Source: Hellea balneolensis DSM 19091
GTDB taxonomy: Bacteria > Pseudomonadota > Alphaproteobacteria > Caulobacterales > Maricaulaceae
Length of the DNA: 64,000 nucleotides
Direction: 5' to 3'
Assembly (NCBI RefSeq): GCF_000428525.1
Contig: NZ_KE386760.1
Location: 147,832-211,831 of the forward strand
Under the pieces are notes generated by a model. That model was given only the letters and a program-made list of their open reading frames with translations, had not been told where the DNA came from and did no database searches. The translations under genes and the position numbers were made by a program. Within the stretch, counting starts at the first letter, position 1. Each line of letters opens with the position of its first letter. Positions 58,944 to 61,365 of this stretch are shown here, piece by piece.

Positions 58944-59037
58944 ATGGGTCTCCAAAATTTGCGGGAGGTCTAAATCATTATACGCGAGATGCATATGCGA
59001 TAGATGGGCGCAGAAAACAAGGGAGAGCCCTCAGATT

Positions 59038-59055: not shown

Positions 59056-59061
59056 TATGCG

Positions 59062-59183
59062 CGGAGTGTCCGTAATCGATGCAGGGCATCGATTACAATG
59101 TAGCGCTCTCATCGCTGGCGATGAAGGTTACTAACGGCTGGCACCTGGCATAAATCGATATTCTATCAATTCCGGACACTCCG
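59062..59183. repeat. MITE-like inverted-repeat element
   Basis: Perfect 11-bp terminal repeats CGGAGTGTCCG (59062-59072) and CGGACACTCCG (59173-59183), with an inner perfect GTAATCGATG-CAGGG-CATCGATTAC (59072-59096) and a CATCGC/GCGATG pair. No ORF, no clear target-site duplication. About 122 bp. Confidence 0.65.
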
Positions 59184-59249
59184 TAACCGACACGTCAACA
59201 ATTTAAATATGATCCGAAAGAGGGAATTAGAGTTGATTAATAAACCATA

Positions 59250-59534
59250 TCAGAATGACCTCTTTGAAAGTAAGTCCACCAATTCAGCAACTTTTTCTTC
59301 TCGTGCAGAGATATCGTCACTCGCGATAGCGGCGGCCAAACAGTGGTCAACATGGTCTTTCAGAAGTTCACCCTCAACGCGCCGCAATGCGGCTGTAACG
59401 GCTTTGACTTGCACAAGGATATCTACGCAATAGCGATCTTCATTTATCATCTTTTGTAAGCCCCGCACTTGGCCTTCTATACGGGAGAGCCGCTTGAGAC
59501 TGGCACTGCGGCGTGCTTTTCTGTCTTTTTGCAT
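59250..59534 (-). CDS. CsoR/RcnR-family metal-sensing repressor
   Basis: 94 residues, all-helical. SLKRLSRIEGQVRGLQKMI is the family start, and the ligand set looks like CsoR: Cys in RYCVDIL, His and Cys in DHVDHCLAAAI (H-x3-C). CsoR-type proteins bind Cu(I) and release DNA. Divergent from the metal operon starting at 59588, with a 53-base gap that holds the operator. Ni/Co (RcnR) is less likely because the Cys-His-Cys set is present. Confidence 0.9.
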   Translation of the reverse strand: MQKDRKARRSASLKRLSRIEGQVRGLQKMINEDRYCVDILVQVKAVTAALRRVEGELLKDHVDHCLAAAIASDDISAREEKVAELVDLLSKRSF

Positions 59535-59572
59535 ATCATGACCATTTTGTGACTTGAGATATCGAATTATTT

Positions 59573-59589
59573 ATACCATAGGGGGGTAT
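59573..59589. promoter_or_regulatory. CsoR-type operator overlapping a start codon
   Basis: ATACC-ATAGGGG-GGTAT is a pseudopalindrome with the G-rich core typical of CsoR/RcnR operators (ATACC...GGTAT flanks). It overlaps the ATG of the next gene (59588) and the predicted -10 (TATACC 59572-59577 or TTTATA 59570-59575) of a promoter with TTGTGA at 59547-59552. Confidence 0.72.
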
Positions 59590-60241
59590 GCGTTGTGTTA
59601 CAACATTATTCGCCAGTCTAGCCCTTGTGTCAGGCATAGCTGAGGCCCGTCCCGTCTCTTATCCCGATGCGTGGACCGTGATGCTGCGCAATGACGTCTA
59701 TCAAAACAGCGCCCATATTCATTATACGCTTGATACACAGCATAGCTTGGGGTTGCGTCTTAGATATGATCGGGAAGGTGATTTTGTCTTTACAGGCGCA
59801 CAGCTGAACCGTCTCTTTAAACGTTGGAACAAAGTGGATAGCCAGGCCAATCTATATGGCCGCATCGCGATAGGACAGGTCACGGATAATCTAGATGAGA
59901 CTGAACTTCGCCTGACACGCGGCAATGACGAGGGTCTGTTTTTGGGCATATCGGGGGATTGGGAAACACGGCGCTATTTTGTTTCGGCTGCTGCGGAGCA
60001 TTGGGAAAGTGGCCGTTTTGGAGAATTTTCCAGTTTTCATGGCCGGCTAGGCGTTGCCCCCTACGTTGCCAATACAGGCGCGCTCCATAGTTGGATTATG
60101 GTGGAAGGGCATCACCGCCCCGAAAGCAATGATAAAGTTGCGGCAACGGCTTTGCTGCGTTTTTTTAAAGGTCCATCTTTACTGGAAGTCGGTGTTGACG
60201 ACAAAGGTGAGCCCCTGCTTAATTATATTCATAGGTTTTAG
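59588..60241 (+). CDS. Outer-membrane-like protein of the CsoR operon
   Basis: 217 residues with a signal peptide (MRCVTTLFASLALVSGIAEA) and a mature part of alternating hydrophobic/polar strands (HIHYTLDTQHSLGLRLRYD, QANLYGRIAIGQV, RYFVSAAAEHWES, LHSWIMVEGHHRP, TALLRFFKG) ending in Phe (YIHRF), as in small outer-membrane beta-barrels. Family not recognised. First gene of the metal operon; its start overlaps the operator, so the mRNA may be leaderless. Probable role in metal passage or sensing at the outer membrane. Confidence 0.68.
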   Translation: MRCVTTLFASLALVSGIAEARPVSYPDAWTVMLRNDVYQNSAHIHYTLDTQHSLGLRLRYDREGDFVFTGAQLNRLFKRWNKVDSQANLYGRIAIGQVTDNLDETELRLTRGNDEGLFLGISGDWETRRYFVSAAAEHWESGRFGEFSSFHGRLGVAPYVANTGALHSWIMVEGHHRPESNDKVAATALLRFFKGPSLLEVGVDDKGEPLLNYIHRF

Positions 60242-60251
60242 GAGACGGATT

Positions 60252-60611
60252 ATGAGATTACTGATTACACTTATAACGGCTGCGACGCTCAGCCTTGCCC
60301 CTACGGCAGGTTTTGCCAAAGACAAGAAAATGAACGGCCCAGAGGTGGTTGAGATGGCCGATATTTCGGTTGGCCTGAGCGGGCTTGTCTGTGATTTTTG
60401 CTCTATCGCGCTCAATAAAACATTTAAAAAACGTGATGAAGTGCGCGGTACTTATGTTGATTTGGACACAAAGCTTCTCTCTGTCGCGCTGAATGAAGGG
60501 GAAACCCTCGCGAATGAAGAGATTGTAAAGCTGGTTAAAAAAGCCGGTTATTCGACAACCAAAATCACGCGCAAAGACGGCAGTGAATTTATACCGCCTG
60601 CTAAATCCTAG
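60252..60611 (+). CDS. Periplasmic HMA/MerP-like metal-binding protein
   Basis: 119 residues. Signal peptide (MRLLITLITAATLSLAPTAGFA) then a heavy-metal-associated-like fold: SVGLSGLVCDFCSIALNKTF with CDFC in the position of the MerP CxxC, TYVDLDTKLLSVAL and IVKLVKKAGYSTTKI. Binds a soft metal in the periplasm by inference. ATG 60252 has AGGAG 8 bases upstream; the longer frame overlaps the previous gene. Second in the CsoR operon, 2 bases before the MerT-like gene. Confidence 0.85.
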   Translation: MRLLITLITAATLSLAPTAGFAKDKKMNGPEVVEMADISVGLSGLVCDFCSIALNKTFKKRDEVRGTYVDLDTKLLSVALNEGETLANEEIVKLVKKAGYSTTKITRKDGSEFIPPAKS

Positions 60612-60613
60612 AG

Positions 60614-61003
60614 ATGAGCAAAGCGAAACTCGCTTTTCGGGAAACAGCTGCGCCAACTGTTGCGCTAGTCACAAGCCTCTCAACGCTTATTTGTTGTACC
60701 TTGCCAGCAGTGATGATCACTTTGGGCATGGGCGCCGCTTTGTCATCCCTAACATCAAATGTGCCGCAGCTCATTTGGCTGTCAGAAAGAAAACCCCTCG
60801 TCTTTGGCGGCTCATTTATTTTGCTTTGTTTGGCCTGGTGGGTCCGGTATTTGACCCGAAATATGCCGTGCCCTGCTGATCCTGCCCAAGCTAAAGCCTG
60901 CGCCCGCTTACGCGCTCTTGGCGGATGGGTGCTTTATATTGGATTTGGCGTTTGGGCGGTCGGCGCGTTTTCGGCTTTTGTTCTACCGAAGCTTCTCGCT
61001 TAG
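60614..61003 (+). CDS. MerT-like membrane transporter
   Basis: 129 residues with three predicted helices. The first, SLSTLICCTLPAVMITLGMG, carries vicinal Cys-Cys as in MerT; the loop between helices 2 and 3 has a second pair (CPADPAQAKAC). The third helix is GWVLYIGFGVWAVGAFSAF. MerT imports Hg(II) handed over by MerP; the CsoR regulator points instead to copper or a related soft metal. No merA or merR in the window. Its end overlaps the small membrane gene by 4 bases on the other strand. Confidence 0.8.
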   Translation: MSKAKLAFRETAAPTVALVTSLSTLICCTLPAVMITLGMGAALSSLTSNVPQLIWLSERKPLVFGGSFILLCLAWWVRYLTRNMPCPADPAQAKACARLRALGGWVLYIGFGVWAVGAFSAFVLPKLLA

Positions 61004-61218
61004 GCGGCGCTTAAATATCCAATAAGCAGGGACAAAAAAGCACCGACGTGAACAACCATAATGGCTTTGTCTTTCCACATAATCCCAACAACAAACCAAA
61101 GAATGATTCCAACGAGGAAAAAATAGACATTCCAAGGGGTATAGTTAAGTCCCGTCAGTCCATAGCCGATGAGCTGTATGGCGGTCGCAATCCATTTAAC
61201 GATATCAACTTTTTTCAT
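61000..61218 (-). CDS. Small membrane protein
   Basis: 72 residues, two or three helices (WIATAIQLIGYGLTG, VYFFLVGIILWFVVGIMW, HVGAFLSLLIGYL). Resembles the DUF6552-type small membrane proteins. ATG 61218 with a GAGGG ribosome-binding site is chosen. Function unknown. Convergent with the MerT-like gene. Confidence 0.78.
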   Translation of the reverse strand: MKKVDIVKWIATAIQLIGYGLTGLNYTPWNVYFFLVGIILWFVVGIMWKDKAIMVVHVGAFLSLLIGYLSAA

Positions 61219-61365
61219 AATAGCCCTCAGTGTTAGCGGCATAGCCGTAGCATAAATAAAAATGGCCTTAGCCGTATGGCGAAATTAAAGTTCCTAATTT
61301 TGCGTTTTCAGGGGCAATGACGTTCATTCATTTGATGAGAAGCTTATCCAATAGCATGATAGCTA

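Follow-up and report, generated by a model that had tools for sequence, protein, structure and literature searches.

A CsoR-linked gene set for a predicted outer-membrane barrel, an HMA-like protein and a remotely MerT-like protein in Hellea balneolensis and its relatives, apparently part of copper homeostasis

Which metal is handled by an operon in which a CsoR-family repressor faces genes for one protein of each envelope layer, and does this metal move inward or outward? The question is raised by a locus of Hellea balneolensis DSM 19091, located in a stretch of 64,000 nucleotides of contig NZ_KE386760.1 that was analysed as a whole and is called the window here. Gene calling recovered all four genes where a preliminary description had placed them, with csoR opposite three consecutive open reading frames (Table 1). 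These are closely spaced and encode the barrel, the HMA-like protein and the MerT-like protein, in this order and divergently from csoR. The operon genes are under purifying selection in the six of 12 gene-by-genome comparisons with unsaturated dS (dN/dS = 0.04-0.11; three for the barrel, two for the MerT-like and one for the HMA-like gene), csoR being saturated in all three of its own. A DUF6552 gene (61000-61242) was rejected as a fourth member of the operon, since it adjoins the set at only two of the 20 loci L001-L020. On the other flank, the inverted pair CGGAGTGTCCG / CGGACACTCCG is present at 59061-59072 and 59172-59184, between csoR and a flavoprotein-type gene ending at 58994.

Table 1. 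Features of the csoR-barrel locus, in window positions.
Feature	Position	Strand	Basis
csoR, CsoR-family repressor, 94 aa	59250..59534	-	PF02583 match; ligands C36, H61, C65
Putative CsoR-type operator, ATACCATAGGGGGGTAT	59573..59589	.	Sole match in the window with ≤3 mismatches
Predicted outer-membrane 12-strand beta-barrel, 217 aa	59588..60241	+	Structure model; signal peptide to ~ARPVSY
Periplasmic HMA-like metal-binding protein, 119 aa, CDFC	60252..60611	+	PF00403 below cut-off; apparent signal peptide
Three-helix inner-membrane protein, remotely MerT-like, 129 aa	60614..61003	+	Helix model; Cys pairs

The 217-residue protein has no match to a Pfam family at E ≤ 1. It carries a signal peptide and an aromatic C-terminal end (RF), and its structure model, calculated from an alignment of the window protein with those of 78 of 80 loci (the best 80 of 311, see below), is a confident one (mean pLDDT 92.3, pTM 0.80) and shows 12 strands closed into an up-down barrel. 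A comparison with solved folds gave outer-membrane barrels as neighbours, e.g., an autotransporter domain (Z 16.9) and KdgM (Z 14.2), with PcoB (7pge; Z 11.0, rmsd 4.2, 162 aligned residues) at rank 28 among many such barrels; Foldseek alone gave only three matches at E ≤ 0.001. The model and its neighbours agree with the barrel that had been suspected in this beta-rich protein, which we predict to be located in the outer membrane. Spread of the barrel by plasmids was rejected, no match being present among 72,556 plasmid records.

Barrel positions at most five residues from the periplasmic strand ends are better conserved than those further away (3.36 vs 2.39 bits, p = 5e-8). Strand alternation in the model would turn M32, H43 and H45, together with H167, W169 and M171, towards the lumen at these ends. 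H45, H167, W169 and M171 are invariant in 19 rows found without peptide patterns; in the 11 credible rows of a sample of the class (see below), H45, H167 and W169 are invariant and M171 is present in ten. This pattern is suggestive of a conserved His/Met/Trp mouth on the periplasmic side, and should be read with caution because the orientation was taken from the usual barrel rule and because periplasmic strand ends are often conserved in barrels generally.

The 119-residue protein scores just below the cut-off of the HMA family (PF00403, 22.4 vs 24.8 bits) and below that of the NCBIfam MerP model (20.3 vs 92.55 bits), and its matches with solved structures are to MerP and to the HMA domains of copper ATPases. 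It is the single HMA match in the genome. Both Cys of its CxxC motif, CDFC in the window, are present in 54 of 54 aligned rows, one being the window's and 53 coming from 49 of the 80 loci retained as the best of 311; four rows are second HMA copies. A variant arrangement, HMA-barrel-HMA-CsoR without MerT-like gene, was observed at L062 (4545-6209), L074 (4631-6185) and L129; its first HMA protein resembles a lipoprotein, with a Cys after the signal stretch.

The 129-residue protein is modelled as three helices (residues 3-36, 60-81 and 90-128; pLDDT 78.8), and this model has no relative among solved structures at E ≤ 0.001. Helix 1 contains the pair C27-C28, and a second pair, C86/C96, is located at the loop between helices 2 and 3. 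All 63 aligned rows retain the four Cys; one row is the window's, and the others come from 62 of the 70 loci with the gene (from the best 80 of 311). The window protein stays below the MerT cut-offs of Pfam (15.0 vs 32.9 bits) and NCBIfam (17.0 vs 150 bits); 20 of the 63 family members match PF02411 at E ≤ 0.1 (best 6.5e-05), and comparison of the family profile with annotated MerTP gave a probability of 56.9 over 59 columns. The spacing of its second pair (C-x9-C) differs from that of the loop Cys of MerT. The label 'Mer-like' given to these proteins is thus adequate for a remote resemblance and for the Cys pairs, which are as claimed, but not for family membership, as the MerT and MerP scores lie far below the cut-offs. 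The reported lack of a mercury reductase and of MerR was confirmed: no open reading frame of the genome exceeds the MerA cut-off (TIGR02053, 454.45 bits), four of them reaching 295-367 bits, as general flavoprotein reductases would, and there is no MerR among the four operon genes.

MerT-like proteins were also detected on plasmids, with 10 records at E ≤ 1 and strong matches in four from Variovorax and two from Vibrio. On the Vibrio alginolyticus plasmid, an HMA gene adjoins the MerT-like gene, and the annotation within 7 kb includes a P-type ATPase, a copper multicopper oxidase and copper resistance protein B; the MerT-like stretch and the HMA gene form part of a copper-resistance island there, next to a GDCCVxC gene (L154, 6736-8116). 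On the Variovorax plasmids, an HMA-like open reading frame lies 5′ of the MerT-like one, with no annotated copper genes nearby. A related arrangement in one genome (G014; L149, 3544-5684) has a MerR-type regulator opposite a MerT-like gene and an HMA gene; next comes a gene for a different protein of 295 residues without Pfam match, which hints that the outer-membrane member of the set may be exchangeable.

Linkage of the three genes was examined in several samples. In named genomes, a relative is encoded by 311 stretches, of which the best 80 were retained; the nearest named genomes are those of Hellea and other Hyphomonadaceae/Caulobacterales, and the gene set is found in both alpha- and gammaproteobacterial genomes. 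The barrel and HMA genes adjoin at all of these 80 best loci, with the MerT-like gene alongside at 70; among the ten loci without it, L021 corresponds to a gap of N's and L043 to a contig end. As the 80 loci had been found by two short peptides, one containing LHTWxM, a second linkage test used a whole-protein barrel profile and covered 289 genomes of the class, partly the same as those of the 80 loci. This gave 13 matches including the window's own. Ten of the 12 others have the three genes together, one is the HMA-barrel-HMA-CsoR variant L129, and the last (G178, L160) is a weak match without the triad neighbours, in which most key residues differ. The set survived, in these samples and in the 61 relatives described next, the possibility raised in the preliminary description that the 217-residue protein might not be conserved beside its two partners.

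Among 61 relatives, the window's genome counted, 20 have a barrel match. One of these (G052) is weak and partial, contains an in-frame stop and was dropped from the linkage count; in 18 of the 19 remaining genomes the three genes are together, with CsoR within the fetched stretch in 12. The exception, L002, corresponds to L021, where the HMA gene runs into N's and a MerT-like fragment lies just 3′. A MerT-like match is present in all 20 barrel-positive genomes (as a fragment in G003 and at another place in G052), vs one strong (G014) and two marginal matches (G012 and G015) in the 41 barrel-negative ones, so that the co-occurrence of both genes across the 61 relatives is near-perfect. A gene for a glutaredoxin-MauE fusion adjoins the set at seven loci (L063, 6347-7093; L042; L047; L049; L027, 3839-4597; L007; L012). 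Two separate barrel loci are present in each of two genomes (G353, with L042 and L087; G371, with L049 and L070), and one of the two in G353 is without MerT-like gene.

The regulator of the window belongs to the CsoR family (102.3 bits on PF02583, Pfam cut-off 22.8), and its closest solved-structure relatives are CsoR proteins. Its Cys-His-Cys ligands, already recognised as Cu-type in the preliminary description, are kept in 12 of 12 aligned rows. ATACCATAGGGGGGTAT is the only CsoR-type site in the window when up to three mismatches are allowed (0.03 expected), and it ends within the barrel start codon, on the second base of the ATG. The sequence TACCATAGGGGGGTATG is identical in all 14 loci L021-L034, where its last three bases are the barrel ATG, and L100 has an operator variant with the same start-codon overlap; altogether, the overlap is present in the window and in 15 of 15 other loci with divergent csoR, 14 of them identical. 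A consensus scan found no sigma-70 promoter at the operator. We infer that the operator overlaps the barrel promoter and that the barrel gene may be read from a leaderless mRNA. Within the best 80 of 311 loci, a CsoR-type site is located near csoR or the barrel gene at 24 of the 25 CsoR loci (the exception is L090), and an operator match is present somewhere at seven of the 55 that lack CsoR.

The regulators at the same 80 loci (best 80 of 311) are CsoR at 25, a CueR-like protein at four and a CopL/CutF-like open reading frame at 44. At least one of these copper-type regulators is present at 70 loci; none was detected by the tests used at nine, and one more is at a contig edge. The four CueR-like genes are divergent to the barrel set, and two of their products were scored against the NCBI cut-off of 147.4 bits, one being over it (149.8) and the other under (137.8). 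The CopL/CutF-like open reading frame is short, rich in Cys, His and Met, has a C-terminal PP motif and lies just 5′ of the barrel gene; 19 of 2266 background open reading frames satisfy the same test. Seven were scored, of which four match the CopL model, all below its cut-off, and none passes DUF2946. The C-H-C ligands of CsoR, the operator over the barrel start codon and the CueR-like and CopL/CutF-like genes at other loci make copper, as far as sequence can tell, the most likely metal of the system.

The genome of the window, which is 99.81% complete, has no match to E1-E2 (P-type) ATPases. Heavy-metal RND, CusF-like and CopD-like proteins are over their cut-offs and a CopC-like one is just under; a Cus-like RND operon lies on contig C2 (L148), where it includes CusF, CopD-like and CopC-like genes and has a Cys-rich CopL-like open reading frame at its edge. 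Could the MerT-like protein take the place of the copper ATPase CopA, scored here by a match to TIGR01511? Such a match is absent from 12 of the 20 barrel-positive relatives vs eight of the 41 barrel-negative ones (Fisher p = 0.003, with the doubtful barrel of G052 included, G029, with weak fragments only, counted as lacking and G025 and G030, with fragments, as having CopA), and from seven of 14 vs seven of 40 in genomes at least 90% complete (p = 0.03), in tests that ignore the shared history of related species. In the class sample, the corresponding values are six of 12 vs 22 of 68 (p = 0.33; this covers 68 of the 276 genomes without barrel, takes weak matches as presence and has the doubtful G178 among the 12). 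In 69 further carrier genomes, some of which overlap the class sample (nine of the best 80 of 311 loci were omitted, their genomes having been searched already), the match is absent from 31, in a count made without completeness figures. Among nine genomes with a MerT-less locus, CopA is present in three (G346, G347 and G351), four have neither CopA nor a MerT-like gene (G348, whose locus ends with the contig, G349, G350 and G352), one has a MerT-like gene elsewhere (G353) and one lacks CopA and has a single marginal MerT-like match (G354). Barrel, MerT-like gene and CopA are all absent from G001. These counts lend weak support to a MerT-like protein in place of CopA. The idea suits the window's genome but does not hold up as a general rule, in view of the class-sample value and of the MerT-less carriers that also lack CopA.

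We propose that the operon is induced by Cu(I) and handles copper across the envelope, most likely for detoxification, a reading that we hold with somewhat more belief than doubt. Linkage, copper regulators, a fixed operator, invariant Cys, the barrel model with its conserved periplasmic strand ends and a genome with one HMA match and no detectable P-type ATPase all argue for it. CsoR would occupy the operator over the barrel start codon and be released by Cu(I) bound at Cys36/His61/Cys65, a control step that sequence comparison strongly supports. The HMA-like protein would bind Cu(I) through CDFC, given its invariant ligands, and would exchange it with the three-helix protein, which may relay Cu(I) over the inner membrane between its loop and helix-1 Cys pairs. 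The loaded HMA-like protein could then dock at the periplasmic mouth of the barrel, with its lumen His, Met and Trp, and copper would cross the outer membrane. Net flow is likelier outward because CsoR turns the genes on at high cytosolic Cu(I), which makes detoxification more likely than uptake. Against this reading count the other copper system of the genome (Cus-like RND, CusF, CopD), the carriers lacking both the MerT-like gene and CopA, and the nine of 80 loci (best 80 of 311) without copper-type regulator. As the MerT-like gene is missing at ten of these 80 loci, the inner-membrane step would not always be included; what had been presented as a complete three-layer path stands as a CsoR-controlled three-layer set, but its inner-membrane member is missing at some loci. 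A stronger version, in which an outward MerT-type protein, an HMA shuttle and the barrel mouth form a copper export free of P-type ATPases and the main cytosolic copper exit in ATPase-less bacteria, appears unlikely to us.

The same proteins could instead serve uptake, the barrel admitting copper, the HMA-like protein catching it and the MerT-like protein carrying it inward for storage or cuproenzymes, in the way mercury is moved by MerP and MerT. The two small proteins remotely resemble MerT and MerP, their nearest named relatives, which transport inward. In addition, the 12-strand-like copper barrel PcoB, possibly of similar fold, is reported (PMC9210255) to let copper enter as part of a defence operon, and both points count against an outward flow. 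Control by CsoR, CueR-like and CopL/CutF-like elements, however, implies expression at high copper, where inward transport would be self-reinforcing, and the genome of the window has no detectable P-type ATPase; we regard uptake as possible and rather improbable.

Periplasmic buffering or delivery, with the HMA-like protein and the barrel as the working pair and the three-helix protein as an accessory, e.g., a thiol-redox or docking partner, would explain why the pair is more constant than the MerT-like gene (80 vs 70 of the best 80 of 311 loci), and would agree with the MerT-less variant at L062, L074 and L129 and with the glutaredoxin-MauE gene next to the set at a few loci. However, four invariant Cys, two of them a membrane pair as in MerT, suit a metal relay, and we consider buffering quite unlikely. 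A system for another metal, above all mercury, could be suspected since MerT and MerP rank among the best named models of both small proteins; with regulators of copper types (C-H-C CsoR, CueR-like, CopL/CutF-like), no MerA above cut-off in the genome and no MerR in the operon, it seems very improbable.

The gene set is real, widely conserved and apparently undescribed, and probably belongs with copper-homeostasis systems rather than with mer. The preliminary description had not recognised it as a described system, and we found no account of a barrel/HMA-like/MerT-like set in the accessible part of the open-licence literature; MerT, MerP and HMA are absent from the main text, as accessible, of a review on copper signalling in marine bacteria (PMC10141476). 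We would thus be dealing with a conserved copper-linked set that seems nameless and whose barrel has no Pfam family. If our reading is correct, the set would show how cytosolic copper is handled by bacteria that have no P-type ATPase at all, the host of the window among them, would put a MerT-type protein into copper traffic instead of mercury traffic, and would offer a small, testable pair of barrel and carrier for the question of how copper passes the outer membrane.

Several known systems share parts of this organization. Mer transport (MerT, MerP) likewise combines a three-helix protein with helix-1 and loop Cys pairs and a periplasmic HMA-like protein, whereas the operon proteins described here score far below MerT and MerP cut-offs, have the loop spacing C-x9-C, are under CsoR instead of MerR, lack MerA and include an outer-membrane barrel. 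The Pco/Cop systems (PcoB/CopB) are copper-linked operons with an outer-membrane barrel, PcoB aligning with the present one at Z 11.0 over 162 residues, but PcoB ranks behind other barrels in the structural comparison, the present barrel matches no Pfam family, and the operon includes no multicopper oxidase, CopC or CopD. CusCFBA also handles copper across the envelope with a periplasmic metal carrier; the barrel, HMA-like and three-helix proteins are, however, unrelated to RND parts, and the genome has its separate Cus-like operon. The copper-sensing upstream open reading frames CutF/CopL, as described in PMC9973294, fit the short Cys/His/Met-rich frame preceding the barrel gene at 44 of the relatives' best 80 of 311 loci, although the members tested do not reach the CopL and DUF2946 cut-offs, the genes that follow are those of the barrel set, and the window has none before its barrel, the regulator there being CsoR. 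Finally, operons of the CsoR copZA type have in common with the window a C-H-C CsoR and a G-tract pseudopalindromic operator; here, in contrast, the putative operator lies over a start codon and the targets are a barrel, an HMA-like and a MerT-like protein instead of a P-type ATPase.
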